Shown piece by piece: positions 1,400 to 64,000 of a stretch of DNA of 64,000 nt (position 1 is the stretch's first letter; every line of letters starts with the position of its first letter). A program made the translations under genes and the position numbers. The notes under the pieces were generated by a model. The model was not told the DNA's origin and searched no databases. It saw only the letters and a program-made list of their open reading frames with translations. This DNA is from Larus michahellis (taxonomy: Eukaryota; Chordata; Aves; Charadriiformes; Laridae): the NCBI RefSeq assembly GCF_964199755.1, contig NC_133913.1, positions 6,364,201-6,428,200 on the forward strand, given 5' to 3'.

Positions 1400-15460
<14,061 letters not shown>

Positions 15461-38847: not shown

Positions 38848-40740
38848 TATGGAATCTTCATGGTTGGAAAGGACCTTTAAGATCATCGAGTCCAACCAAA
38901 CAACCTACAATCTCTGCCACTAGAGCATGCCCTGAAGTGCCACATCTAGACTTTTCTTAAACACCTCTAGGGATGGTGACTCAACCCCCTCCCTGGGCAG
39001 GCTGTTCCAGTGCCTGACCACTCTTTCAGTAAATTAATTCCTCCTAATATCTAACCTAAACCTCCCCTGCCGCAGCTTCAGACCATTTCCTCTGGTCCTG
39101 TCATTATTTACTTGAGAGAAGAGGCCAACACCCACCTCTCTCCACCCTCCTTTCAGGGAGTTGTAGAGGGCAATGAGGTCTCCCCTCAGCCTCCTCTTCT
39201 CCAAGCTAAACATGCCCAGCTCCCTCAGCCTCTCCTCATATGCCCTGGTCTCCAGAGCCCTCACCAGCCTGGTAGCTCTCCTCTGGACACGCTCCAGCAC
39301 CTCAATGTCCCTCTTGTACAGAGGGGCCCAGAACTGAACACAGCACTCGAGGTGAGGCCTCACCAGTGCCCAGTGCAGAGGCACCATCACTTCCCTGCTC
39401 CTGCTGGCCACGCTATTCCTGATACAAGCCGGAATGCTGTTGGCCTTCTTGGCCACTTGGGCACACTGCTGGCTCATGTTAAGCTGGCCATCCACCAGCA
39501 CCCCCAGGTCCTTTTCTGCTGGGCAGCTTTCCAGCCACTCTGCCCCAAGCCTGTAGTGTTGCTTGGGGTTGTTGTGACAGAAATGCAGGACCCGGCACTT
39601 GGCCTTATTAACCCTCATACGGTTGGCCTTGGCCCATCGATCCAGCCTGTCCAGGTCCCTCTGTAGAGCCTTCCTACCCTCAAGCAGATCAACACTCCCA
39701 CCTAGTTTGGTGTCATCTGCAAACTTACTGAGGGTGCACTCGATCCCCTCATCCAGATCATCGATAAAGAAATTAAACAAAACTGGCCCCAAAACTGAGC
39801 CCTGAGGGACACCACTGGTGACCGGCCACCAAGAGGATTTCGCCCCATTAATCACAACTCTCTGGGCATGGCCATCCAGCCAGTTTTTAACCCAGTGAAG
39901 AGTACACTTGTCTGTGCCATGATTCGCCAGCTTCTCCAGGAGAATGCTGTGGGGGACGGTGTCAAAGGCCTTACCAAAGTCCACACAGACAACGTCCACA
40001 GCCTTCCCCGCATCCAGAAGGCAGGTCACATGGTCATAGAAAGAGATCAGGTTGGTTAAGCAGGACCTCCCTTTCCTAAACCCATGCTGGCTGGCCCTGA
40101 TCCCTTGGCAGCCCTGCACTTGCCGTGAGAGCTCACTCAAGATGATCCTCTCCATGATCTTTCCTGGTACCGAGGTCAGGCTGACAGGCCTGTAGTTCCC
40201 TGGATCGTCCTTCCGACACTTCTTGTAGTTGGGTGTCACATTAGCCACCCTCCAGTCATCTGGTACCTGCCCTGTTGACCAGGATTGCTGATAAATGATG
40301 GAGACGGGCTTGGTGAGCTCTCCCGCCAGCTCCCTGAGTACTCTTGGGTGAATCCCATCCGGCCCCATAGACTTGTGTGTGTCTAGGTGCAGAAGCAGAT
40401 CATTGACTACTTCCTCCTGGATTATGGGTGGCTTGTTCTGCTCTTCATCCTTATCTTCCAGCTCAGGAGGCTGAGCACCCTGGGGATAGCTGGTCTGACT
40501 ATTGACGATGGAGGCAAAGAAGGCATTAAGTGTCTCAGCCTTCTCCTCGTCCTTGGTTGCAACTTTCCCCCCTGCATCCAGTAAGGGATGGAGATTCTCC
40601 CTGGCCTTTTTGTTGATGTATTTATAAAAGCTTTTTTTGTTGTCCTTAATGTTAGTGGCCAAGTTGAGCTCCAGCTGGGCTTTTGCCTTCCTAATTTTCT
40701 CTCTGTATAACCTAAGTAAAGAAAGTTCCTAACTCTGTAT
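38848..40740 (-). mobile_element. Young CR1 LINE, 5'-truncated, with long open reverse-transcriptase frame
   Basis: About 1.9 kb, 3' end at the left (GGTTGGAAAGGACCTTTAAGATC on the plus strand). On the minus strand a frame is open from about 40711 to the TAA at 39034. It includes the pre-RT segment ([18 protein letters not shown]) and the RT blocks [29 protein letters not shown] and the catalytic FADDTKLGG. The endonuclease domain and 5' UTR are missing, so it cannot be autonomous. The frame ends early at the DIRRN position, where relatives continue about 50 residues, through a change that creates TAA. It sits inside an older CR1. Confidence 0.93.
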
Positions 40741-43600: not shown

Positions 43601-43915
43601 TTAGCAGGGGGGGCACCTCCTGCCACAGTAGCGGCTGCCCAAGCCAGAGAGGCCGGAGAGGCCAAAGCCCCCGGAGGAGATGGGCACTCCCTCAGAGCTG
43701 AGGATGCTGCCAACGGCAGCGGAGGTGGAGGATCCCACGGCAGTGTTCTGTGGGAAGGAGCTGAGGATGGGTCCGGGCAGGGTCACCACCACAGGAGGGG
43801 GTTCAATGACGACGGTGGAGTCCTGGCACTGCCTGACACAGGGCTCATTGCAGCTGTTGGCCAGCGGGGTCGGGCCACAGGGCTGGCATGGCAGGCACGG
43901 GTTGTAGCAGGACAT
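43601..43915 (-). CDS. Feather beta-keratin 1 (corneous beta-protein), 104 aa
   Basis: A complete single-exon coding region starting [17 protein letters not shown], with a Cys-rich N-terminus. The central beta-sheet core runs around [17 protein letters not shown], followed by Gly-Leu-Ser repeats and a Cys-rich C-terminus ([10 protein letters not shown]). Feather keratins polymerise into 3-nm filaments and are cross-linked by disulphides in barb and barbule cells. The gene has the standard structure: non-coding exon 1 (ending at 44088), an intron of about 150 bp with GT-AG ends, and exon 2 from 43936. TATA is at 44148-44154 and AATAAA at 43202-43207. Compared with its neighbours it has Asn5, IEPPP instead of I(E/Q)PSP, and an acidic SSEGVP where the others have SSAGVP. 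It is the left member of the first divergent pair. Confidence 0.96.
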
Positions 43916-47182: not shown

Positions 47183-47497
47183 ATGTCCTGCTACAGCCCG
47201 TGCCTGCCATGCCAGCCCTGTGGCCCGACCCCGCTGGCCAACAGCTGCAATGAGCCCTGTGTCAGGCAGTGCCAGGACTCCACCGTCGTCATCCAGCCCT
47301 CCCCCGTGGTGGTGACCCTGCCCGGACCCATCCTCAGCTCCTTCCCTCAGAACACCGCCGTGGGATCCTCCACCTCCGCTGCCGTTGGCAGCATCCTCAG
47401 CTCTGCGGGAGTGCCCATCTCCTCCGGGGGCTTTGGCCTCTCCGGCCTCTCTGGCTTGGGCAGCCGCTACTGCAGCACAAGGTGCCGCCCCTGCTAA
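47183..47497 (+). CDS. Feather beta-keratin 2, 104 aa
   Basis: Complete. N-terminus [17 protein letters not shown], beta-sheet core at about residues 47-80, and C-terminus [10 protein letters not shown]. Exon 2 begins at 47162, 21 nt before the ATG, as in the other cluster genes. The long 3' UTR (about 410 nt to ATTAAA at 47904-47909) is homologous to those of keratins 1, 3 and 5. It forms a divergent pair with keratin 1 and is convergent with keratin 3. The function is structural, as for keratin 1. The Arg in the last CRPC is unique to this copy. Confidence 0.96.
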
Positions 47498-47909: not shown

Positions 47910-48929
47910 ATTCTTCTGCATCCCAGCTCTGGCCTCTGTGTCATCCTTTCCCCTGCAAATACTCTCCCAAGATGCCCAGGGAGAGGGGTGTTCCTCGGGT
48001 GGTTCTGGGAAGGGGTTGTTGGGGATGGTTGTGCAGTGGTTGTTAAGACAATGATTTTTAACTGAGAGACACTGGACAGTCTTTCCAAGCAGCTTTTCTT
48101 GTAGAATGCCTGGGCATTGCTCTGCTGGTGCTCGGTGGTGGCTGATAGCCTTGTATCCGTTGTATTTTCCTCTTTTTTCCCTTCCCCTTTTAAACTGTCC
48201 TGATCTCAACCCCAGAGTGTTTCACTCTCTCACTCCTGCAATTCTCCCCCCATCCCACTTGGACAGCACATTGAGAGAACAGCTGGCGGGTGCTTCATGC
48301 TTGCCATGGTCAATACACCAGACAAATGCACATGTGGTTCTTGCCCTGCTCCTTCCCTGTCTGTGCCCAGGGATTCCTGGGAATGTGTCTGGGGAAAAGG
48401 AGCAGGGAGAGACTCAGGGCCGGAAGAGAGGCAGCAGGAGTGGACTGAGTGTCTCAAAGGGCTGTCCAGGAGCTCTCCAAAGCAATGTGGTGACCAGCAG
48501 CAAAGGCTGCAGAGAGGCTTGCAGCTGCGGAAGGGGAGCTGCTGAGCTGCTGCAGCAGAGCGCTGGGTAAGATGACACATGTCCACCCAGAGCCTTGAAT
48601 GGCAGCTGGCTTGGTAGCCACCAGCCCTGTCTCCCCACAAGAGGGAATCCTTCAGTCCATGACAAGCAACAGCCCAAAGGCAGGGCCAGGAAAAGGTGCT
48701 TTTGCGGTAACCCTATCAAAACACATGCGTCTCTCAGCACCGCTCTGGACACCGAGGACTGTCGTCAACATCCTGGCCAATATGAGCAGGACATGAGCTA
48801 CGAGCTATGGGGTAGTGACAATCCCACTCTGCTCAGCAGTCAACTGATGGCATCAGAACAGTGCTCTAATTCCAGAATGATATAATACAAGAAAGAACTT
48901 GACCGAGTGCGGTGGGTTCAGCAGAGGGT

Positions 48930-49325
48930 GTCCAGGATGGTGAGGAGCTGGAGCACTTCCCTGGGGAGGAGAAACAGGGCACAGGGCTTGCTGAGCGTGA
49001 AGAGAAGGCTTTGGTGCAAGACCTAAGAGCAGCTTTGGAGTAGCTATGGTGAGGTCCCCCAGAAGACAGATCCAGGCTCAACACTCAAGCGGTGCGTGGT
49101 TGGAGGACTAGAGATAATGGGCTCATGTTGCAAGATGAGAGGTTAGCACTCGATAAGAGGAAAATGGTTTTCACCAAGTGGAGAGTCCAACAGTAGGACA
49201 GGTTGCCTGGGAAGGTTGTGCGGTAACCGTCCTTGGACACTCATGGCTGACTGAGCTTGGAGCAAGGGGTTGGGCCCGAAGCCCTCTAGAGGTCCTTTCC
49301 AAGCTATGCCATGATCTGATGGTCC
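48930..49325 (+). mobile_element. Decayed CR1 LINE 3' relic (recurs at 56203 and 63476)
   Basis: A heavily diverged CR1 3' end: AGGATGGTGAGGAGCTGGAG, later GTTGCCTGGGAAGGTTGTG and CTCTAGAGGTCCTTTCC. It is much older than the CR1s at 23648 or 38848. Copies lie at +7,273 and +14,546. Confidence 0.6.
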
Positions 49326-49879
49326 CAGGACCACCTTTTTGTGCCTCTGCCCACGAGGGATAGGGCCAGCAATGAGAAGGAAGGGCTCAGCTTCCTGGCC
49401 AAGGAGACAGGCAGTGTGCAGGAACTCTTCGGAACGCTCCGTGAAAGGAAACAAAAGATTGCAAAAAGCATCTCTGCACCAGCTAGAAGGCACAAGACCT
49501 AAGGACTCCAGCTGTTGGGACAAATGTTTTCCCAAAGGTGCCATGACAATACGTTCCCTTACTGTTCTCTTGCTTTTATCTTCCACGTGGTTTTCTCCTC
49601 AGCCCGCAACTCTAAACCTCAATGCTTTTATTTAAGACAGGTTCTCCTAGGCTTACCTGTGAAGGTATTGCCTCTGCCTTGTCAATAACACAATTCATTC
49701 CTTCTTCTCCTCACTGCTTGCTTCACAGTGTTGAGTGTAGCAAGGAAAAAGAAAAGGTGTACACAACAAAGCGATGGTTGTGACTGAACTACATTGAGTA
49801 ACTCTATCCTGATATACCCCGTCTAGGCAGAGAAGTTTAGCAACCAGAGGGTACACCCAATTCACGACTAAGCATACTC

Positions 49880-50165
49880 AATGCAAACCCGTGTTGACGC
49901 TCGCTGCCCAACCATCCCCAATACCCCCAGCCAAAACCACTCCTGAGCAACGTCTCTTTCCCTGGGCATGTTGGGAAAGCGTCTGCAGGGAAAAGGATGG
50001 CACAGAGGCATGGGCTGGGAGGCAGCCAAACTTTATTGCGTCAAGAGAGGGAAATGAGGTCGATATGAGTGGAGGCCCCAGTGCAGGGAGCAACAGGGGC
50101 AGAAAGGGGTCTGTGCCCCGTGGCTGTGGTGGAAATCCCACCAGGTATTCATCTGCCTGCAGCCC
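49880..50165 (-). pseudogene. Orphan keratin 3' end (coding exon lost)
   Basis: On the minus strand this matches the 3' UTR tail and downstream flank of keratin 1 (TTTATT near 50033-50038 with GCGTCAAGAGAGGGAAATGAGG, and GAGTGGAGGCCCCAGTGCAGGGAGCA). No coding region follows. A CR1 reverse-transcriptase fragment begins at about 50165 instead. It is the relic of a former minus-strand keratin gene. Confidence 0.7.
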
Positions 50166-50410
50166 TTTGAGTGCGGCCGTCTAGCCAGTTCCTTATCCAC
50201 CGAGTGGTCCATCCATCAAATCCATGCCTTTACCATTTAGAGACCAGGATGTCGTGCAGGACAGTGTCAAACGCTTTGCACAAGTCCAGGTAGATGACGT
50301 TGGTTGCCCTCTGCTTATCTACCAGTGCTGTGGCAACATCACAGAAGGCCACCAAATTTGTCAGGCAGGATTTGTCTTTGGTGAAGCCATTTGGTTGGGA
50401 GGGAGAGGCT
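50165..50410 (-). mobile_element. CR1 reverse-transcriptase fragment
   Basis: The minus-strand frame reads [19 protein letters not shown] and then [18 protein letters not shown], an RT palm region with [11 protein letters not shown] degraded WIRNWLDG-type stretch follows. It replaces the body of the lost keratin gene. Confidence 0.82.
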
Positions 50411-50729
50411 GAGGGCAAGGCGCTTCCTCAGCATGGAGAAGAGAAGCCGTGGTAGAAGACCTAAAATCACTTGAGTAGCTACGGCCGCTGAAATGTATTG
50501 GGTCATTCAATCCAGCCCCGGATTGGTAGAGAAGATTAGAAAGCAGAGTGTCACAAAATGCACGACCCAGGACAGTCAAAGCAATCCTATGTTAAGAGTC
50601 ACTGAACAACCTTCTCCTACGACTCCCTCCCCAGACCACCCCTTAGCAGCATCCCTCTCCCTGTGAATCTTGGGAGAGTGCTGCAGAGAAAAGGACGACA
50701 CAAAGGCGTGGACTGGGATGCAGCGGACG

Positions 50730-50735
50730 TTTATT
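50730..50735 (-). terminator. Poly(A) signal of feather keratin 3
   Basis: AATAAA on the minus strand, about 396 bp after the stop codon. Confidence 0.8.
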
Positions 50736-51130
50736 GGGTTAGAAGAAGGAGATGAGGTCAATCCGAGTGGAGGCCCAAGTATAGAAAGCACAAGGGGCTG
50801 TGTCCGAGGCCCCGCAAGGTGTCGATCTGCCTGTCCCAGAGAGGGGGCAGGGCCAGCAGGTCCTGCCTAGGCTGGCTCTGTGGGGCTCACAGCCCAGGGC
50901 AGCACAAGAGAAGAAGGAGACGGGAGGCAAAGGAGAGAGTGGAAGAGGGGAAAGGCAGGCATGGGCCGTGCTTTCCGAGAGCCCAGGCTGGCCCCGTCCT
51001 AATGCAAGGGGTGTTGGGGTTGCTCAGCCCTTCTGAAAGGAAGAGCACAATGCTCCGTCTCCAGTCTGATACCCCAGCCTGGTACCAGTCTGGGTCCCTG
51101 GGGACCTTCCCAGGGCCATCGCCAGCAGCT

Positions 51131-51454
51131 TTAGCAGGGGGGGCACCTTGTGCCGCAGGGGCGGCTGCCCAAGCCAGAGAGGCCGGAGAGGCCAAAGCCC
51201 CCGGAGGAGATGGGCACTCCCGCAGAGCTGAGGACGCTGCCAACGGCAGCGGAGGTGGAGTTTCCAACGGCGGTGCTCTGTGGGAAGGAGCTGAGGATGG
51301 GTCCGGGCAGGGTCACCACCACGGGGGAGGGCTGGATGACGACGGTGGAGTCCTGGCACTGCCTGACACAGGGCTCATTGCAGCTGTTGGCCAGCGGGGT
51401 GGGGCCACAGGGCTGGCAGGGTTGGCATGGCAGGCACGGGCTGTAGCAGGACAT
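51131..51454 (-). CDS. Feather beta-keratin 3, 107-aa variant
   Basis: Complete. It is three residues longer than the usual 104 because the N-terminal Gln-Pro-Cys is duplicated ([14 protein letters not shown]). The core has [11 protein letters not shown] and [11 protein letters not shown]; the C-terminus is [11 protein letters not shown]. Exon 2 starts at 51475 (acceptor CAG), the intron runs 51476-51914, and non-coding exon 1 ends at 51915. TATA is at 51974-51980. The extra QPC adds one cysteine for possible disulphide bonding. It is the left member of the second divergent pair; its near-identical copy is keratin 5. Confidence 0.96.
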
Positions 51455-51973
51455 GTCTTGTGGCTGGAGGTGCACCTGGGAGAGAGGGCAGACGCAAACT
51501 ATGCCAGAAGGGTGGCGGAAGAGCAGCCTGTCACGCAACAAAGACGAAACCCTGGGAGAGAGGGCAGGGGGGAAGCAGACCGGGAGAGATGGGTGAGGAG
51601 CAGTCTGTCACCCCACCACAAGGGACCCAAGGCCTGAACCGGAGATGAGAGCTGTAGGCTGAGTGGAGTGGTCCACAGGCTTCTCCTTTCCCACAGAAGA
51701 GCCCTGCTAAAGGTGACCAAGCCCAGGGAGATGCCCGTCTCCCCAAATCTAAGGAGACGCCTCAACCAAGACCCATCGTCTCTCTGTGGCACACCTTCTG
51801 CTGCCTTCCCTCTCCCATGGCAATCAGTTCTAAGACCCTGCATTGAATAAAGGGGCACGTGTGGGCTGAGAAATCCCAGAGGAGTAGAAGGAGAAGAAAG
51901 AGCTCCAGACTCACCTTGTTCCAAAGGAGAAGGAGGTGGAGAGGAGTGGATTACAGAGAAGAGAAGGGCCCGC

Positions 51974-52041
51974 TTTTATACAGCTCCTGCACTGCCCCAG
52001 GTGCACAGTCATTTCATGCGGGCAGTAATTTTCCAATAGAC
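51974..52041 (-). promoter_or_regulatory. Promoter of feather keratin 3
   Basis: TATAAAA on the minus strand at 51974-51980. The conserved block reads GTCTATTGGAAAATTA at 52026-52041, one base different from the copies at keratins 1, 2, 4 and 6. Confidence 0.85.
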
Positions 52042-53195
52042 TCACCTCCAAAGCAAAATGTCCTACCTAATGGCACAGGTTGTGTTTTGGTTACTGTCAG
52101 CACTGCTGTTTCATTTCCCCATTTCTGACATGCCCAGTAGACCACGGAGGCTCCTTTCAAGAACCGGGATGAGAAGCGCAAGGATTTCCCAATGCAGGAA
52201 CACATCAGAACGGGCAGAAGGAAAGCCCCAAGTGGAGCCCCATGGACTTGGGTTCTTCCTCACCACCTGAGCGGTGTGTTAGGGCTCGGGACAGCGCCTT
52301 GTTCCTCCCACTCTCCTCACACCACCATGCACTTTGGCCTCACACTTTGGACCCTGACCAGCAAGAGACACAATGGCCTGGCCACTTTTCCAAACACACT
52401 GACTGTCCTGCGAGCCCCGCGAGCTGTGGGAGTGCCGGCAAGAAGGTCGTGATGAGAGCAGTGGCCATTAGGGCTTGCTGGAGGTGTGCTTGGGTACAGC
52501 TCAGTGCTTGGATATGGTTTTCCTGGGGCTAGGATGCAGCTTGCCCTGGCTGCAGGGGAACGCAGCCCTGCGTGGGAGAAGGGCCTGCAGAGAGCACACA
52601 CTCCTGGCTTGTCGTCACACCAAAAGGCTGACACACGGCCAATCCACAATTAGAGTGTGACTCGCCATGGGTAGGGAGAGTCTGTCCCAGGAAGCTTGCC
52701 TGCTAAAGGCTTTCCCTTGCCCTCCTGGGACGTGTCCCAGCTGCCTTCATGCCTGCAGGGCAGGGAAGTGCATCACCTTTTTGATGTAGTCTGAGAGCTG
52801 TTTTTGAACACAGGGCCACTCTGATCCCCTCCCCTCCCTGAGCATCCTCAGGCACGTGGCACTTCAGGGTCCTGTCAGGCCTTGCTTGCTGTGGAGTTGG
52901 GGGAAATTTCCTGGCCTCTGCCATGGTGCTGGGTTGTGCTCCAAGCTGACGAGTCCCTTGGGGCATGGGAAAGGAGGCACGGTGAAGCCCCAGTGCCGGG
53001 AGAAGATGTATCGCCTGGGACCCAGGGATGGTGAGCCCTGGCTGGTGGGGAGCTGCTTTCTGCAAGCCTTTCTTTTCCTCTGCAGAGCATTCAGGACAGG
53101 TCCTCACCACGGCCCGGTCTCTTTGTCCAGGTAGGTGAGGCCTGTGCACCCATTCCCTTTCACCCTCCAAGCATCTCTCCATCGCTGACCCTGCC

Positions 53196-53400
53196 CCAGG
53201 GGGCAGATCTACCCAGAGGAGGTTCAAGGGCTCTAGGACCATACGGTAGTTCAGTCTCCAGTCCATACTGATGCAAGAGGTTCTTCCTTTCCAGGTGCAG
53301 GACTTGATATTTTTCCTTCTTGAAGGCCATGAGGCTCCTGTGGGCCCATTTCTTGAGCCTGTCTAGGTGTGCCTCTATGGCAGCCCTGCCCTGGAGTGCA
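53196..53400 (-). mobile_element. CR1 pol fragment between keratins 3 and 4
   Basis: The minus-strand frame holds ALQGRAAIEAHLDRLKKWA and YQVLHLERKNLLHQYGLE, homologous to the post-RT region of CR1 pol (compare [19 protein letters not shown] at about 39,600). It is short and isolated inside the divergent spacer. Confidence 0.8.
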
Positions 53401-53898
53401 TCAGCTGCCATGTACGGGCCGGATTTTCTCAGGCAGTCCTTGATTTGATGGCCACCCGTTACCGGAGCAAAGGGCATCGAGAGGAAGACAGCTGAAACCA
53501 TCTGCCTTTTCTTGGAGATGCAATGGCCAGTGACTGCTGGAGTGATCTGAGAGAGAGAAGCAAGTGGCATGTCCTGAAGGGAAGAGCATGCCTGGTGATG
53601 TGTGTGGTGTGGGGCAGAGCTGGGCATCTTCCTGCAAAGGGAGTTGCGAACAATCGCGCTTCCCTGCCCCAAGCCAACATTCCCTGGCTGCACGAGACCC
53701 CAACAGCACTTGGGGCTCATCTTCTGCCTGCCGCGAAACAATTCAGCCTGGGATATCATTTGGCCTCTCATCCTGGCACATGAAAGAAGCCTGCATAACG
53801 GACAAAGCATGACAGAAATGAGGAAATGAAATGAGAGCGTTGATGGAAACAAAACTAGAACATGTGCCATTAGGTAGGATATTTTGCTTTGGAGGTGA

Positions 53899-54026
53899 GT
53901 CTGTTGGAAAATTAGTGCCTGCGTGGAGTCACCATTGGCCTTGGGCTGTGCAGGAGCGGTATAAAAGTGGGCCCTTCTCCTCACTCTCTCATCCACTCCT
54001 CTCACCTCCAACTCCTTTGGAACAAG
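53899..54026 (+). promoter_or_regulatory. Promoter and non-coding exon 1 of feather keratin 4
   Basis: GTCTGTTGGAAAATTA at 53899-53914 and TATAAAA at 53960-53966. Exon 1 ends at 54026 (GTGAGT donor follows). The intron continues to the CAG acceptor at 54402. Confidence 0.85.
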
Positions 54027-54423
54027 GTGAGTGTGAAGCCCTTTCCCTCCTCCTTTTCCTACACTTCTTTCGCTGGGATTTCGTAGCACATACCTTCTCT
54101 ATTTTCCCATGCTGTGTCTTGGAACTTCTTGGAATGGGAGAGGGAAGGGGGCAGAAGGTGTGGCACGGAGAGAGGTTGGGGCTAGGCTGAGGTGCCTGCT
54201 GAACTACGGGCTAGGCAGGGACATGCCGGGGTTTAGTCGTTCTTGGCAGAGTTCTTTTAGGATGCGGGGAAGGGGGAGCCCCTGGACCTCTCTCCACCTC
54301 TGGCTCTCATCTCCAGAATGTGACTTTGCCCCCGTGTGTTGAGGAGACAGGCTGCTCCTCACGCAGCCCTCAGGCTCTGCTTCCCTCTGCCCTCTCTCCC
54401 AGGCGCACCTCCAGCCACAAGAC

Positions 54424-54738
54424 ATGTCCTGCTACAGCCCGTGCCTGCCATGCCGGCCCTGTGGCCCGACCCCGCTGGCCAACAGCTGCAATGAGCCCTG
54501 TGTCAGGCAGTGCCAGGACTCCACCGTCGTCATCGAGCCCTCCCCCGTGGTGGTGACCCTGCCCGGCCCCATCCTCAGCTCCTTCCCTCAGAACACCGCC
54601 GTTGGAAACTCCACCTCCGCTGCCGTTGGCAGCATCCTCAGCTCTGCGGGAGTGCCCATCTCCTCCGGGGGCTTTGGCCTCTCCGGCCTCTCTGGCTTGG
54701 GCAGCCGCCCCTGCGGCACAAGGTGCCCCCCCTGCTAA
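54424..54738 (+). CDS. Feather beta-keratin 4, 104 aa
   Basis: Complete. N-terminus [17 protein letters not shown] (Arg where the others have Gln), IEPSPVVV before the beta core, [11 protein letters not shown], and C-terminus [11 protein letters not shown]. Exon 2 begins at 54403. The 3' UTR is very short: ATTAAA at 54797-54802 lies about 60 nt after the stop, whereas keratins 1-3 have about 400 nt. The missing part corresponds to an internal deletion, because TGCATCCCAGC and downstream sequence still match keratin 2. Keratin 6 is its duplicate. Confidence 0.96.
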
Positions 54739-54796
54739 AGCTGTTGCCTGTACTGAGGCTTCCACTTGGATGGACCTCGTTTCCCTCTTTTGACTC

Positions 54797-54802
54797 ATTA
54801 AA
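54797..54802 (+). terminator. Poly(A) signal of feather keratin 4
   Basis: ATTAAA, 59 nt after the stop codon. Confidence 0.7.
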
Positions 54803-55250
54803 GTTCTGCTGCATCCCAGCCTACGCCTCTGTGTCATCCTTTCACCGCAGACGCTCTCCTAAGGTGCCCAGGGAGACATATGTTGCTGAGGGGTGGTTAT
54901 TGGGAGGGGGGCGCTGGGGATGATTTTGCGGTGATTGTCAACACAGGCTTGCGTTGAGTCTGCTTAGTCAGGCACCAGGTGATCCTCTAGTTTCTAAATT
55001 TGTCTGCCTTTTTGCGTCGGGAGTGACTTACCCCACGTGGATCACTACCATCCCCTTTGCTATGCACACCTTTTCTTTTTCCTGGATAAGCTTAACATTG
55101 TGATGGAAGTTGTCAGGAGGGAATGTGGTATTGAGAAGGCACAAGCGCTAGCTTCTGAGGAGAGGCCAGGAGAACCCATCCTAACCATGGCATTCTCAAA
55201 GGGAGTAACGTAGTGCAGCGGGCTGCCTTATTGTAGAACCATAATACCAA

Positions 55251-55314
55251 AGAATCGTAGAATGGTTTGGATTGGAAGAGACCTTTAAAGGTCATCCAGT
55301 GCAACCCCCCCGGC
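55251..55314 (-). mobile_element. CR1 LINE 3' tip (recurs at 62524)
   Basis: AATCGTAGAATGGTTTGGATTGGAAGAGACC in plus-strand reading is the extreme 3' end of an antisense CR1. It is only about 60 bp and is repeated at +7,273. Confidence 0.8.
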
Positions 55315-57152
55315 CTTGTCATGTAACATCATGCTCAGCAATAAAACTGTGGGCAGTCTTTCCACAGCAGCTGCTCTTCAGAGACTGTCTGGGCATCGGT
55401 GTGCTGGTGTTAGGTTGTGGGTGATTGCCTTGCAATACATGTGTTTTTGTTCTCTGTTTTCCCTTCCCTTCTTCGATTGTCCCGATCATGACCCAAGGGT
55501 ATTGCCCTCTCTTGATATTGCCGTTCTCCCCCTACGCGACTGGGACAGCAGATCAGCAGAACAACTGTTGGGTGCTTCGTGCGCAGAAACACACTAGGAA
55601 GGCCCACAGGTCCTTGCCTTGCTCCTTCCCTGTCTGTGCCCAGGGATTCCTGGGAATGTGTCTGGGGAAAAGGAGCAGGGAGAGACTCAGGGCCGGAAGA
55701 GAGGCAGCAGGAGTGGACTGAGTGTCTCAAAGGGCTGTCCAGGAGCTCTCCAAAGCAATGTGGTGACCAGCAGCAAAGGCTGCAGAGAGGCTTGCAGCTG
55801 CGGAAGGGGAGCTGCTGAGCTGCTGCAGCAGAGCGCTGGGTAAGATGACACATGTCCACCCAGAGCCTTGAATGGCAGCTGGCTTGGTAGCCACCAGCCC
55901 TGTCTCCCCACAAGAGGGAATCCTTCAGTCCATGACAAGCAACAGCCCAAAGGCAGGGCCAGGAAAAGGTGCTTTTGCGGTAACCCTATCAAAACACATG
56001 CGTCTCTCAGCACCGCTCTGGACACCGAGGACTGTCGTCAACATCCTGGCCAATATGAGCAGGACATGAGCTACGAGCTATGGGGTAGTGACAATCCCAC
56101 TCTGCTCAGCAGTCAACTGATGGCATCAGAACAGTGCTCTAATTCCAGAATGATATAATACAAGAAAGAACTTGACCGAGTGCGGTGGGTTCAGCAGAGG
56201 GTGTCCAGGATGGTGAGGAGCTGGAGCACTTCCCTGGGGAGGAGAAACAGGGCACAGGGCTTGCTGAGCGTGAAGAGAAGGCTTTGGTGCAAGACCTAAG
56301 AGCAGCTTTGGAGTAGCTATGGTGAGGTCCCCCAGAAGACAGATCCAGGCTCAACACTCAAGCGGTGCGTGGTTGGAGGACTAGAGATAATGGGCTCATG
56401 TTGCAAGATGAGAGGTTAGCACTCGATAAGAGGAAAATGGTTTTCACCAAGTGGAGAGTCCAACAGTAGGACAGGTTGCCTGGGAAGGTTGTGCGGTAAC
56501 CGTCCTTGGACACTCATGGCTGACTGAGCTTGGAGCAAGGGGTTGGGCCCGAAGCCCTCTAGAGGTCCTTTCCAAGCTATGCCATGATCTGATGGTCCCA
56601 GGACCACCTTTTTGTGCCTCTGCCCACGAGGGATAGGGCCAGCAATGAGAAGGAAGGGCTCAGCTTCCTGGCCAAGGAGACAGGCAGTGTGCAGGAACTC
56701 TTCGGAACGCTCCGTGAAAGGAAACAAAAGATTGCAAAAAGCATCTCTGCACCAGCTAGAAGGCACAAGACCTAAGGACTCCAGCTGTTGGGACAAATGT
56801 TTTCCCAAAGGTGCCATGACAATACGTTCCCTTACTGTTCTCTTGCTTTTATCTTCCACGTGGTTTTCTCCTCAGCCCGCAACTCTAAACCTCAATGCTT
56901 TTATTTAAGACAGGTTCTCCTAGGCTTACCTGTGAAGGTATTGCCTCTGCCTTGTCAATAACACAATTCATTCCTTCTTCTCCTCACTGCTTGCTTCACA
57001 GTGTTGAGTGTAGCAAGGAAAAAGAAAAGGTGTACACAACAAAGCGATGGTTGTGACTGAACTACATTGAGTAACTCTATCCTGATATACCCCGTCTAGG
57101 CAGAGAAGTTTAGCAACCAGAGGGTACACCCAATTCACGACTAAGCATACTC

Positions 57153-57438
57153 AATGCAAACCCGTGTTGACGCTCGCTGCCCAACCATCCCCAATACCCC
57201 CAGCCAAAACCACTCCTGAGCAACGTCTCTTTCCCTGGGCATGTTGGGAAAGCGTCTGCAGGGAAAAGGATGGCACAGAGGCATGGGCTGGGAGGCAGCC
57301 AAACTTTATTGCGTCAAGAGAGGGAAATGAGGTCGATATGAGTGGAGGCCCCAGTGCAGGGAGCAACAGGGGCAGAAAGGGGTCTGTGCCCCGTGGCTGT
57401 GGTGGAAATCCCACCAGGTATTCATCTGCCTGCAGCCC
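57153..57438 (-). pseudogene. Orphan keratin 3' end, unit 2 copy
   Basis: Duplicate of 49880-50165 at +7,273, with the same features. Confidence 0.7.
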
Positions 57439-57683
57439 TTTGAGTGCGGCCGTCTAGCCAGTTCCTTATCCACCGAGTGGTCCATCCATCAAATCCATGC
57501 CTTTACCATTTAGAGACCAGGATGTCGTGCAGGACAGTGTCAAACGCTTTGCACAAGTCCAGGTAGATGACGTTGGTTGCCCTCTGCTTATCTACCAGTG
57601 CTGTGGCAACATCACAGAAGGCCACCAAATTTGTCAGGCAGGATTTGCCTTTGGTGACGCCATTTGGTTGGGAGGGAGAGGCT
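57438..57683 (-). mobile_element. CR1 reverse-transcriptase fragment, unit 2 copy
   Basis: Duplicate of 50165-50410. It carries two substitutions near 57658 and 57667 relative to unit 1, the densest local difference between the two units. Confidence 0.82.
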
Positions 57684-58002
57684 GAGGGCAAGGCGCTTCC
57701 TCAGCATGGAGAAGAGAAGCCGTGGTAGAAGACCTAAAATCACTTGAGTAGCTACGGCCGCTGAAATGTATTGGGTCATTCAATCCAGCCCCGGATTGGT
57801 AGAGAAGATTAGAAAGCAGAGTGTCACAAAATGCACGACCCAGGACAGTCAAAGCAATCCTATGTTAAGAGTCACTGAACAACCTTCTCCTACGACTCCC
57901 TCCCCAGACCACCCCTTAGCAGCATCCCTCTCCCTGTGAATCTTGGGAGAGTGCTGCAGAGAAAAGGACGACACAAAGGCGTGGACTGGGATGCAGCGGA
58001 CG

Positions 58003-58008
58003 TTTATT
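58003..58008 (-). terminator. Poly(A) signal of feather keratin 5
   Basis: AATAAA on the minus strand; unit 2 copy of the signal at 50730. Confidence 0.8.
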
Positions 58009-58403
58009 GGGTTAGAAGAAGGAGATGAGGTCAATCCGAGTGGAGGCCCAAGTATAGAAAGCACAAGGGGCTGTGTCCGAGGCCCCGCAAGGTGTCGATC
58101 TGCCTGTCCCAGAGAGGGGGCAGGGCCAGCAGGTCCTGCCTAGGCTGGCTCTGTGGGGCTCACAGCCCAGGGCAGCACAAGAGAAGAAGGAGACGGGAGG
58201 CAAAGGAGAGAGTGGAAGAGGGGAAAGGCAGGCATGGGCCGTGCTTTCCGAGAGCCCAGGCTGGCCCCGTCCTAATGCAAGGGGTGTTGGGGTTGCTCAG
58301 CCCTTCTGAAAGGAAGAGCACAATGCTCCGTCTCCAGTCTGATACCCCAGCCTGGTACCAGTCTGGGTCCCTGGGGACCTTCCCAGGGCCATCGCCAGCA
58401 GCT

Positions 58404-58727
58404 TTAGCAGGGGGGGCACCTTGTGCCGCAGGGGCGGCTGCCCAAGCCAGAGAGGCCGGAGAGGCCAAAGCCCCCGGAGGAGATGGGCACTCCCGCAGAG
58501 CTGAGGACGCTGCCAACGGCAGCGGAGGTGGAGTTTCCAACGGCGGTGCTCTGTGGGAAGGAGCTGAGGATGGGGCCGGGCAGGGTCACCACCACGGGGG
58601 AGGGCTGGATGACGACGGTGGAGTCCTGGCACTGCCTGACACAGGGCTCATTGCAGCTGTTGGCCAGCGGGGTGGGGCCACAGGGCTGGCAGGGTTGGCA
58701 TGGCAGGCACGGGCTGTAGCAGGACAT
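58404..58727 (-). CDS. Feather beta-keratin 5, 107-aa variant (duplicate of keratin 3)
   Basis: The protein is identical to keratin 3. The only coding difference seen is the synonymous glycine codon at the 51302/58575 position. Exon 2 starts at 58748, non-coding exon 1 ends at 59188, and TATA is at 59247-59253. It is intact and presumably expressed with keratin 3. It forms the third divergent pair with keratin 6. Confidence 0.96.
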
Positions 58728-59246
58728 GTCTTGTGGCTGGAGGTGCACCTGGGAGAGAGGGCAGACGCAAACTATGCCAGAAGGGTGGCGGAAGAGCAGC
58801 CTGTCACGCAACAAAGACGAAACCCTGGGAGAGAGGGCAGGGGGGAAGCAGACCGGGAGAGATGGGTGAGGAGCAGTCTGTCACCCCACCACAAGGGACC
58901 CAAGGCCTGAACCGGAGATGAGAGCTGTAGGCTGAGTGGAGTGGTCCACAGGCTTCTCCTTTCCCACAGGAGAGCCCTGCTAAAGGTGACCAAGCCCAGG
59001 GAGATGCCCGTCTCCCCAAATCTAAGGAGACGCCTCAACCAAGACCCATCGTCTCTCTGTGGCACACCTTCTGCTGCCTTCCCTCTCCCATGGCAATCAG
59101 TTCTAAGACCCTGCATTGAATAAAGGGGCACGTGTGGGCTGAGAAATCCCAGAGGAGTAGAAGGAGAAGAAAGAGCTCCAGACTCACCTTGTTCCAAAGG
59201 AGACGGAGGTGGAGAGGAGTGGATTACAGAGAAGAGAAGGGCCCGC

Positions 59247-59314
59247 TTTTATACAGCTCCTGCACTGCCCCAGGTGCACAGTCATTTCATGCGGGCAGTA
59301 ATTTTCCAATAGAC
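59247..59314 (-). promoter_or_regulatory. Promoter of feather keratin 5
   Basis: TATAAAA on the minus strand at 59247-59253 and the conserved 16-bp block at 59299-59314. It is the unit 2 copy of the keratin 3 promoter. Confidence 0.85.
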
Positions 59315-60468
59315 TCACCTCCAAAGCAAAATGTCCTACCTAATGGCACAGGTTGTGTTTTGGTTACTGTCAGCACTGCTGTTTCATTTCCCCATTTCTG
59401 ACATGCCCAGTAGACCACGGAGGCTCCTTTCAAGAACCGGGATGAGAAGCGCAAGGATTTCCCAATGCAGGAACACATCAGAACGGGCAGAAGGAAAGCC
59501 CCAAGTGGAGCCCCATGGACTTGGGTTCTTCCTCACCACCTGAGCGGTGTGTTAGGGCTCGGGACAGCGCCTTGTTCCTCCCACTCTCCTCACACCACCA
59601 TGCGCTTTGGCCTCACACTTTGGACCCTGACCAGCAAGAGACACAATGGCCTGGCCACTTTTCCAAACACACTGACTGTCCTGCGAGCCCCGCGAGCTGT
59701 GGGAGTGCCGGCAAGAAGGTCGTGATGAGAGCAGTGGCCATTAGGGCTTGCTGGAGGTGTGCTTGGGTACAGCTCAGTGCTTGGATATGGTTTTCCTGGG
59801 GCTAGGATGCAGCTTGCCCTGGCTGCAGGGGAACGCAGCCCTGCGTGGGAGAAGGGCCTGCAGAGAGCACACACTCCTGGCTTGGCGTCACACCAAAAGG
59901 CTGACACACGGCCAATCCACAATTAGAGCGTGACTCGCCATGGGTAGGGAGAGTCTGTCCCAGGAAGCTTGCCTGCTAAAGGCTTTCCCTTGCCCTCCTG
60001 GGACGTGTCCCAGCTGCCTTCATGCCTGCAGGGCAGGGAAGTGCATCACCTTTTTGATGTAGTCTGAGAGCTGTTTTTGAACACAGGGCCACTCTGATCC
60101 CCTCCCCTCCCTGAGCATCCTCAGGCACGTGGCACTTCAGGGTCCTGTCAGGCCTTGCTTGCTGTGGAGTTGGGGGAAATTTCCTGGCCTCTGCCATGGT
60201 GCTGGGTTGTGCTCCAAGCTGACGAGTCCCTTGGGGCATGGGAAAGGAGGCACGGTGAAGCCCCAGTGCCGGGAGAAGATGTATCGCCTGGGACCCAGGG
60301 ATGGTGAGCCCTGGCTGGTGGGGAGCTGCTTTCTGCAAGCCTTTCTTTTCCTCTGCAGAGCATTCAGGACAGGTCCTCACCACGGCCCGGTCTCTTTGTC
60401 CAGGTAGGTGAGGCCTGTGCACCCATTCCCTTTCACCCTCCAAGCATCTCTCCATCGCTGACCCTGCC

Positions 60469-60673
60469 CCAGGGGGCAGATCTACCCAGAGGAGGTTCAA
60501 GGGCTCTAGGACCATACGGTAGTTCAGTCTCCAGTCCATACTGATGCAAGAGGTTCTTCCTTTCCAGGTGCAGGACTTGATATTTTTCCTTCTTGAAGGC
60601 CATGAAGCTCCTGTGGGCCCATTTCTTGAGCCTGTCTAGGTGTGCCTCTATGGCAGCCCTGCCCTGGAGTGCA
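60469..60673 (-). mobile_element. CR1 pol fragment between keratins 5 and 6
   Basis: Unit 2 copy of 53196-53400, with one substitution changing Leu to Phe in the relic frame (RSLMAF to RSFMAF). Confidence 0.8.
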
Positions 60674-61171
60674 TCAGCTGCCATGTACGGGCCGGATTTT
60701 CTCAGGCAGTCCTTGATTTGATGGCCACCCGTTACCGGAGCAAAGGGCATCGAGAGGAAGACAGCTGAAACCATCTGCCTTTTCTTGGAGATGCAATGGC
60801 CAGTGACTGCTGGAGTGATCTGAGAGAGAGAAGCAAGTGGCATGTCCTGAAGGGAAGAGCATGCCTGGTGATGTGTGTGGTGTGGGGCAGAGCTGGGCAT
60901 CTTCCTGCAAAGGGAGTTGCGAACAATCGCGCTTCCCTGCCCCAAGCCAACATTCCCTGGCTGCACGAGACCCCAACAGCACTTGGGGCTCATCTTCTGC
61001 CTGCCGCGAAACAATTCAGCCTGGGATATCATTTGGCCTCTCATCCTGGCACATGAAAGAAGCCTGCATAACGGACAAAGCATGACAGAAATGAGGAAAT
61101 GAAATGAGAGCGTTGATGGAAACAAAACTAGAACATGTGCCATTAGGTAGGATATTTTGCTTTGGAGGTGA

Positions 61172-61299
61172 GTCTGTTGGAAAATTAGTGCCTGCGTGGA
61201 GTCACCATTGGCCTTGGGCTGTGCAGGAGCGGTATAAAAGTGGGCCCTTCTCCTCACTCTCTCATCCACTCCTCTCACCTCCAACTCCTTTGGAACAAG
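61172..61299 (+). promoter_or_regulatory. Promoter and non-coding exon 1 of feather keratin 6
   Basis: GTCTGTTGGAAAATTA at 61172-61187 and TATAAAA at 61233-61239. Exon 1 ends at 61299. Confidence 0.85.
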
Positions 61300-61696
61300 G
61301 TGAGTGTGAAGCCCTTTCCCTCCTCCTTTTCCTACACTTCTTTCGCTGGGATTTCGTAGCACATACCTTCTCTATTTTCCCATGCTGTGTCTTGGAACTT
61401 CTTGGAATGGGAGAGGGAAGGGGGCAGAAGGTGTGGCACGGAGAGAGGTTGGGGCTAGGCTGAGGTGCCTGCTGAACTACGGGCTAGGCAGGGACATGCC
61501 GGGGTTTAGTCGTTCTTGGCAGAGTTCTTTTAGGATGCGGGGAAGGGGGAGCCCCTGGACCTCTCTCCACCTCTGGCTCTCATCTCCAGAATGTGACTTT
61601 GCCCCCGTGTGTTGAGGAGACAGGCTGCTCCTCACGCAGCCCTCAGGCTCTGCTTCCCTCTGCCCTCTCTCCCAGGCGCACCTCCAGCCACAAGAC

Positions 61697-62011
61697 ATGT
61701 CCTGCTACAGCCCGTGCCTGCCATGCCGGCCCTGTGGCCCGACCCCGCTGGCCAACAGCTGCAATGAGCCCTGTGTCAGGCAGTGCCAGGACTCCACCGT
61801 CGTCATCGAGCCCTCCCCCGTGGTGGTGACCCTGCCCGGCCCCATCCTCAGCTCCTTCCCTCAGAACACCGCCGTTGGAAACTCCACCTCCGCTGCCGTT
61901 GGCAGCATCCTCAGCTCTGCGGGAGTGCCCATCTCCTCCGGGGGCTTTGGCCTCTCCGGCCTCTCTGGCTTGGGCAGCCGCCCCTGCGGCACAAGGTGCC
62001 CCCCCTGCTAA
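61697..62011 (+). CDS. Feather beta-keratin 6, 104 aa (duplicate of keratin 4)
   Basis: Same protein as keratin 4, including Arg in CLPCRPC and the short 3' UTR with ATTAAA at 62070-62075. Exon 2 begins at 61676. I saw no coding difference from keratin 4, which points to a very recent copy or an assembly duplicate. Confidence 0.96.
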
Positions 62012-62069
62012 AGCTGTTGCCTGTACTGAGGCTTCCACTTGGATGGACCTCGTTTCCCTCTTTTGACTC

Positions 62070-62075
62070 ATTAAA
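62070..62075 (+). terminator. Poly(A) signal of feather keratin 6
   Basis: ATTAAA, 59 nt after the stop codon; unit 2 copy of 54797-54802. Confidence 0.7.
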
Positions 62076-64000
62076 GTTCTGCTGCATCCCAGCCTACGCC
62101 TCTGTGTCATCCTTTCACCGCAGACGCTCTCCTAAGGTGCCCAGGGAGACATATGTTGCTGAGGGGTGGTTATTGGGAGGGGGGCGCTGGGGATGATTTT
62201 GCGGTGATTGTCAACACAGGCTTGCGTTGAGTCTGCTTAGTCAGGCACCAGGTGATCCTCTAGTTTCTAAATTTGTCTGCCTTTTTGCGTCGGGAGTGAC
62301 TTACCCCACGTGGATCACTACCATCCCCTTTGCTATGCACACCTTTTCTTTTTCCTGGATAAGCTTAACATTGTGATGGAAGTTGTCAGGAGGGAATGTG
62401 GTATTGAGAAGGCACAAGCGCTAGCTTCTGAGGAGAGGCCAGGAGAACCCATCCTAACCATGGCATTCTCAAAGGGAGTAACGTAGTGCAGCGGGCTGCC
62501 TTATTGTAGAACCATAATACCAAAGAATCGTAGAATGGTTTGGATTGGAAGAGACCTTTAAAGGTCATCCAGTGCAACCCCCCCGGCCTTGTCATGTAAC
62601 ATCATGCTCAGCAATAAAACTGTGGGCAGTCTTTCCACAGCAGCTGCTCTTCAGAGACTGTCTGGGCATCGGTGTGCTGGTGTTAGGTTGTGGGTGATTG
62701 CCTTGCAATACATGTGTTTTTGTTCTCTGTTTTCCCTTCCCTTCTTCGATTGTCCCGATCATGACCCAAGGGTATTGCCCTCTCTTGATATTGCCGTTCT
62801 CCCCCTACGCGACTGGGACAGCAGATCAGCAGAACAACTGTTGGGTGCTTAGTGCGCAGAAACACACTAGGAAGGCCCACAGGTCCTTGCCTTGCTCCTT
62901 CCCTGTCTGTGCCCAGGGATTCCTGGGAATGTGTCTGGGGAAAAGGAGCAGGGAGAGACTCAGGGCCGGAAGAGAGGCAGCAGGAGTGGACTGAGTGTCT
63001 CAAAGGGCTGTCCAGGAGCTCTCCAAAGCAATGTGGTGACCAGCAGCAAAGGCTGCAGAGAGGCTTGCAGCTGCGGAAGGGGAGCTGCTGAGCTGCTGCA
63101 GCAGAGCGCTGGGTAAGATGACACATGTCCACCCAGAGCCTTGAATGGCAGCTGGCTTGGTAGCCACCAGCCCTGTCTCCCCACAAGAGGGAATCCTTCA
63201 GTCCATGACAAGCAACAGCCCAAAGGCAGGGCCAGGAAAAGGTGCTTTTGCGGTAACCCTATCAAAACACATGCGTCTCTCAGCACCGCTCTGGACACCG
63301 AGGACTGTCGTCAACATCCTGGCCAATATGAGCAGGACATGAGCTACGAGCTATGGGGTAGTGACAATCCCACTCTGCTCAGCAGTCAACTGATGGCATC
63401 AGAACAGTGCTCTAATTCCAGAATGATATAATACAAGAAAGAACTTGACCGAGTGCGGTGGGTTCAGCAGAGGGTGTCCAGGATGGTGAGGAGCTGGAGC
63501 ACTTCCCTGGGGAGGAGAAACAGGGCACAGGGCTTGCTGAGCGTGAAGAGAAGGCTTTGGTGCAAGACCTAAGAGCAGCTTTGGAGTAGCTATGGTGAGG
63601 TCCCCCAGAAGACAGATCCAGGCTCAACACTCAAGCGGTGCGTGGTTGGAGGACTAGAGATAATGGGCTCATGTTGCAAGATGAGAGGTTAGCACTCGAT
63701 AAGAGGAAAATGGTTTTCACCAAGTGGAGAGTCCAACAGTAGGACAGGTTGCCTGGGAAGGTTGTGCGGTAACCGTCCTTGGACACTCATGGCTGACTGA
63801 GCTTGGAGCAAGGGGTTGGGCCCGAAGCCCTCTAGAGGTCCTTTCCAAGCTATGCCATGATCTGATGGTCCCAGGACCACCTTTTTGTGCCTCTGCCCAC
63901 GAGGGATAGGGCCAGCAATGAGAAGGAAGGGCTCAGCTTCCTGGCCAAGGAGACAGGCAGTGTGCAGGAACTCTTCGGAACGCTCCGTGAAAGGAAACAA

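Follow-up and report, generated by a model that had tools for sequence, protein, structure and literature searches.

The closest described counterparts of the locus analysed here are the beta-keratin clusters of chicken and zebra finch, for which high recombination has been suggested as a cause of copy number (Greenwold and Sawyer, 2010; PMC2894828). According to the same paper, the 61 feather genes on chicken chromosome 27 are split 50 to 11 between the two strands, and gene conversion was judged, from early assemblies, to be rare among beta-keratins (PMC2894828). Among 12 chicken genomes, nine of the 25 most copy-variable genes fall in keratin subfamilies (PMC4239369), and across 48 birds beta-keratin copy number is described as extremely variable, from 6 in the barn owl to 149 in the zebra finch (PMC4264316). 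For outlying counts, genome-build quality or domestication have been named as possible causes, while copy number showed no significant correlation with either coverage or N50 (PMC4264316). Many-gene beta-keratin clusters, unequal crossing-over as their suggested cause, and copy variation in the chicken are already known. Here we describe a gull array of divergent keratin pairs that is very probably real and young, and that would have arisen through unequal crossing-over, later exchange among its units and perhaps some gene conversion.

The window, by which we mean the whole 64,000-nucleotide stretch that was analysed (C22:6,364,201–6,428,200, in a genome of 1,405,500,149 bases and 616 contigs), was compared with itself without gaps at offsets of 500–39,999, and the next 80 kb of the contig were also tiled for units (144 kb read in all; positions beyond the window continue its numbering). 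By far the strongest offset was 7,273 (8,219 windows), and the runner-up, 14,546, is its double. Tiling gave seven complete units, each exactly 7,273 bp and all head-to-tail, at 48,347–99,257; an eighth begins with 367 identical bases, after which identity stops at 99,624. The array as a whole spans C22:6,412,547–6,463,824, and its right edge is present within the sequence read. Unit 1 (48,347–55,619) and unit 2 (55,620–62,892) lie entirely in the window, whereas unit 3 is cut by the window end, its first 1,108 bp (62,893–64,000) having no differences from either. The initial annotation had proposed a fixed offset of 7,273 bp free of indels, about ten substitutions per unit, a third unit starting near 62,893 and a continuation beyond the window. 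Self-comparison and tiling bear this out, with exactly 10 substitutions between units 1 and 2, a third start at 62,893, and seven full units plus 367 bp in place of the two visible before.

Across the seven units, 29 of the 7,273 positions vary and indels are absent. Measured against unit 1 as reference, units 2 to 7 differ at 10, 5, 4, 17, 15 and 18 positions; on average two units differ at 12.6 positions (0.17%), with a range from 1 (units 3 and 4) to 20 (units 4 and 7), and no two units are identical. The longest exact internal repeat in the array is 6,345 bp. We also noticed that the first 2,028 bp of the unit (48,347–50,374, and the same place in each unit) are without a variant in all seven copies. 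For 29 uniformly placed sites this has P of about 8e-5, or 0.0025 when treated as the largest circular gap and 0.0014 when only the 18 non-coding sites are considered, all three being post hoc values for a stretch that was spotted in the data. One guess is that homogenisation adjoining the crossover zone described below has kept this stretch uniform.

Two divergently oriented keratin genes are present in each unit: the CDS on the minus strand encodes 107 aa and that on the plus strand 104 aa. In unit 1 these lie at 51,131–51,454 (−) and 54,424–54,738 (+), and in unit 2 at 58,404–58,727 (−), with one silent difference from unit 1, and at 61,697–62,011 (+), identical to its unit 1 counterpart. 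All 14 CDSs of the array are open over their full length. The keratin identity first assigned to the pair holds: PF02422 was matched by six of the six CDSs scanned, namely the four of units 1 and 2 together with an older, diverged pair to the left of the array (43,601–43,915, −, and 47,183–47,497, +), with E-values of 1.7e-35 to 5.8e-39 and scores of 121–132 bits against a Pfam gathering cut-off of 25. A PDB search returned nothing useful (best E 0.97), and Rfam gave zero matches within the window.

Avian beta-keratin genes have a non-coding first exon and one intron ahead of the start codon. When the upstream regions of nine genes were aligned (two from the array, seven from outside it), all nine had a TATAAAA box, the donor AGGTGAGT and the acceptor CCAG, with a variable base immediately on either side of CCAG. 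For the minus gene of unit 1 the predicted TATA box is at 51,980 and the donor after 51,915, with exon 2 predicted from 51,475 provided that splicing takes the second of two acceptors; for the plus gene the corresponding predictions are 53,960, after 54,026, and 54,403, so that the two TATA boxes stand about 2.0 kb apart. The end of the minus-gene intron (51,475–51,556) contains two CCCAGG acceptor-like sites 76 bp apart, and the extra stretch resembles the neighbouring gene near 104 kb. The feather subfamily of beta-keratins is not known to have a long glycine-rich tail. Feather proteins are of about 97 aa (PMC2894828). The array proteins, of 104 and 107 aa, have no long glycine-rich tail, and we regard the genes as putatively feather-type on their length and these general features, PF02422 being a family that does not divide the subfamilies.

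How the units came to be joined is recorded at their boundaries. A tract of 367 bp, the candidate crossover zone (48,347–48,713 in unit 1), is identical at the left edge of the array, at every unit start and at the right edge. To its left lies a paralogue of the unit end (48,073–48,346), of which 48,073–48,300 is 74% identical to 55,350–55,582, while the right flank (99,258–99,942) is a diverged relative of the unit start, 87% identical with the 367 identical bases included. In a three-way alignment of the left edge, the unit 1/unit 2 junction and the right edge, the junction matches the right flank (R) throughout the part that precedes the tract, and the left flank (L) throughout the part that follows it; right-flank-type sequence thus passes into left-flank-type across 55,620–55,986, and the junction has the chimeric structure R/367 bp/L. 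Over 720 bases, the remaining five internal junctions are 1, 0, 0, 1 and 1 bases away from this one, and the right edge 4 bases, which fits an identity that ends after the 367 bases. Judged from the sequence, such a junction is the expected mark of unequal crossing-over between two spacer paralogues. The best relative of the tract outside the array is only 80% identical (in the 144 kb read), so this sequence is not simply kept constant throughout the cluster. That the two edges of the array nevertheless agree over the tract suggests that conversion took place between them, either preceding or accompanying the crossover.

These features fit a history in which one divergent keratin pair would have stood between diverged paralogous spacers L and R, unequal crossing-over inside the 367-bp tract would have produced the first duplication, and later unequal exchange between near-identical units would have both raised the count to seven and shuffled their variants. 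Short conversion tracts from other keratin genes may have added some coding variants, and the likely effect would be more template for an abundant structural protein.

The initial annotation had weighed a very recent expansion against an assembly that had duplicated one locus. The first part stands; the second does not fit seven different units and a right edge in place, and, among the candidates scored (the best 40 of 46), there is no further full copy of unit-specific DNA. A unit-specific piece of 1,187 bp had seven full copies, all of them in the array, the next-best match being 71% (again among the best 40 of 46 candidates), and a 601-bp piece had at least seven full copies among the best 40 of 3,597. 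Ordinary heterozygosity ranges high enough to take in a divergence of 0.17%, and an assembler that had duplicated one real unit, or two alleles of one unit, could have produced copies as close as these. Two alleles, however, cannot give seven different units, and the R/367 bp/L junction matches neither array edge; an assembler would have had to invent it. We therefore set assembly duplication aside as the main reading and consider it very improbable.

An error in the count of an otherwise real array is a more serious concern, although we still think it unlikely. It could arise if the arrays of two haplotypes had been joined end to end, or if units had been collapsed or added. At 51,401, 51,422 and 54,535 units 1–4 form one block and units 5–7 another, as joined haplotypes might, and units 3 and 4 are only one site apart. 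The blocks are not clean, however, since unit 2 shares six alleles with units 5–7 against units 1, 3 and 4. The near-identity of units 3 and 4 and the 6,345-bp exact repeat mean that shorter reads could miscount, whereas reads considerably longer than the repeat could resolve it; the exact count of seven is as assembled and could be wrong. That copy number varies among individuals, and that feather-keratin dosage is being expanded, as first proposed, are plausible extensions of a real array, and the 29 variable sites would serve as markers to count copies in individuals. At a bird substitution rate near 2e-9 per site per year, the mean difference between units corresponds roughly to 0.4 million years and that between units 3 and 4 to tens of thousands of years, estimates that are rough because of exchange among units.

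That exchange is evident in how the variants are distributed. Unit 2 agrees with units 5–7, against units 1, 3 and 4, at 50,375, 50,385, 51,697, 51,931, 52,331 and 52,656, but sides with units 1, 3 and 4 at 51,401, 51,422 and 54,535; at 53,920 it shares its allele with unit 1 only. In the four-gamete test 28 of the 136 informative site pairs fail, and at least three exchanges are needed (Rmin 3). The variants are thus mosaic through later exchange among units, as is expected under concerted evolution.

The variants are also concentrated in the genes. Eleven of the 29 lie in coding sequence, although this makes up only 639 of the 7,273 bp (8.8%; binomial P 1.9e-5); when a cluster of three is counted once, the coding share is 9 of 27 (P 3e-4). 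Five of the 11 change an amino acid and six are silent. This pattern bears on the alternative of an old array whose units have been held identical by selection on their DNA sequence, with neither recent amplification nor exchange. The 14 open CDSs and the variant-free 2,028 bp would agree with such selection, but coding sequence that is more variable than spacer is the opposite of what purifying selection predicts, and we find this alternative hardly credible.

What, then, supplies the coding variants of a young, exchanging array? CpG context is found at 14 of the 29 variable sites, and mutation hot spots of this kind may be part of the source. Other keratin genes may also have donated some coding variants. 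Between units 6 and 7 the plus genes differ at three positions inside 10 bp, and all three unit 7 changes occur in a CDS about 39 kb away (137,440–137,763), where 128 bases around them are identical; of 22 further CDSs aligned (13 from the array and nine from outside it), this was the only one to carry all three. Minus genes within the array also carry two of the three changes, surrounded by up to 141 identical bases, which counts against a single outside donor. At eight of the 11 coding sites both alleles are present in outside copies (10 outside relatives each), while at three of the 11 only one allele is seen among outside genes, which speaks against conversion as their source. For spacers the figure is four of the 13 sites that have a relative, and five spacer sites have none; because coding and spacer sites differ in their number of relatives (10 against 0 to 6), this comparison is confounded, and we dropped it as a test of conversion. 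We tentatively raise the idea, which we hold to be rather less than even in probability, that two opposed modes act here, crossing-over keeping the units identical while short conversion tracts from other keratin genes of the cluster import alleles mainly into coding exons. If so, the 2 kb adjoining the junction would be the most homogenised part of the unit and the genes would vary more than the spacers, and the array would copy gene pairs wholesale yet re-diversify their proteins.

The array forms the left end of a much larger keratin cluster, which includes other arrays. Among the best 150 of 386 candidates scored, at least 96 keratin matches lie on the same contig, with starts from 6,407,870 to 7,739,248, and at least 54 on C28; the C22 cluster thus spans at least 1.33 Mb, and the window holds its leftmost match among those scored. 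Further keratin genes stand to the right of the array. One stretch there, at 103,404–104,447 (C22:6,467,604–6,468,647), outside the array, is 98.4% identical to the unit over 1,044 bp that surround a minus keratin gene, whereas the next aligned stretch is 78% identical; it looks as if it had been recently converted. Other regular spacings were seen at C28:1,731,785–1,817,632, with at least 17 divergent keratin pairs about 5,220 bp apart, a number that exceeds the units of the present array, and at C22:6,716,721–6,794,459, with keratin matches, at least 17 of them, at intervals of 4.79 or 4.96 kb. Within the 10 kb read of each, long stretches reach an identity of 95% or more, at offset 5,220 in the former and 4,790/4,792 in the latter, and the array in the window is therefore one of several. 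At C22:7,052,332–7,157,694, a run of spacings near 13.3, 12.7, 14.0 and 12.5 kb is repeated with its order preserved, which suggests a higher-order repeat of about 52.55 kb. On the non-keratin side, a V-SNARE_C match at 11,411–11,524 (31.1 bits, cut-off 27.1) agrees with the earlier call of GOSR2, short of proof, a gene that presumably lies on chicken chromosome 27. A reverse-transcriptase ORF (39,034–40,368, −, 444 aa, PF00078) is one we take to be CR1-like.

No description of this array was found in the titles and the beginnings of abstracts listed, in a search that covered few subscription journals, and the main texts of PMC13431229 and PMC11745021 do not mention keratin. As far as that literature shows, what is new is a single array in which the junction, the exact unit and the pattern of exchange are all resolved; in kind it is ordinary, an unusually clean instance of a known process. 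It resembles the feather beta-keratins of microchromosome 27 in chicken and zebra finch in being part of a large tandem cluster on a small chromosome, and differs from chicken chromosome 27 in that its genes alternate as divergent pairs, and from the clusters of both species in that exchange among units is visible (PMC2894828). In its minus/plus alternation at distances of a few kb it is closer to the scale beta-keratins of chromosome 25 in these birds and to two zebra finch feather genes on the same chromosome, but those sets comprise four scale genes and two feather genes and form no near-identical array (PMC2894828). The copy-variable keratins of the chicken are known, in the portion of the study available, as copy estimates from whole-genome sequencing, with no unit or junction resolved (PMC4239369). 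Set beside these systems, a contiguous array with an intact junction and a readable pattern of variants offers a concrete mechanism for the variability of beta-keratin copy number, and it bears on whether gene conversion among these genes is rare.
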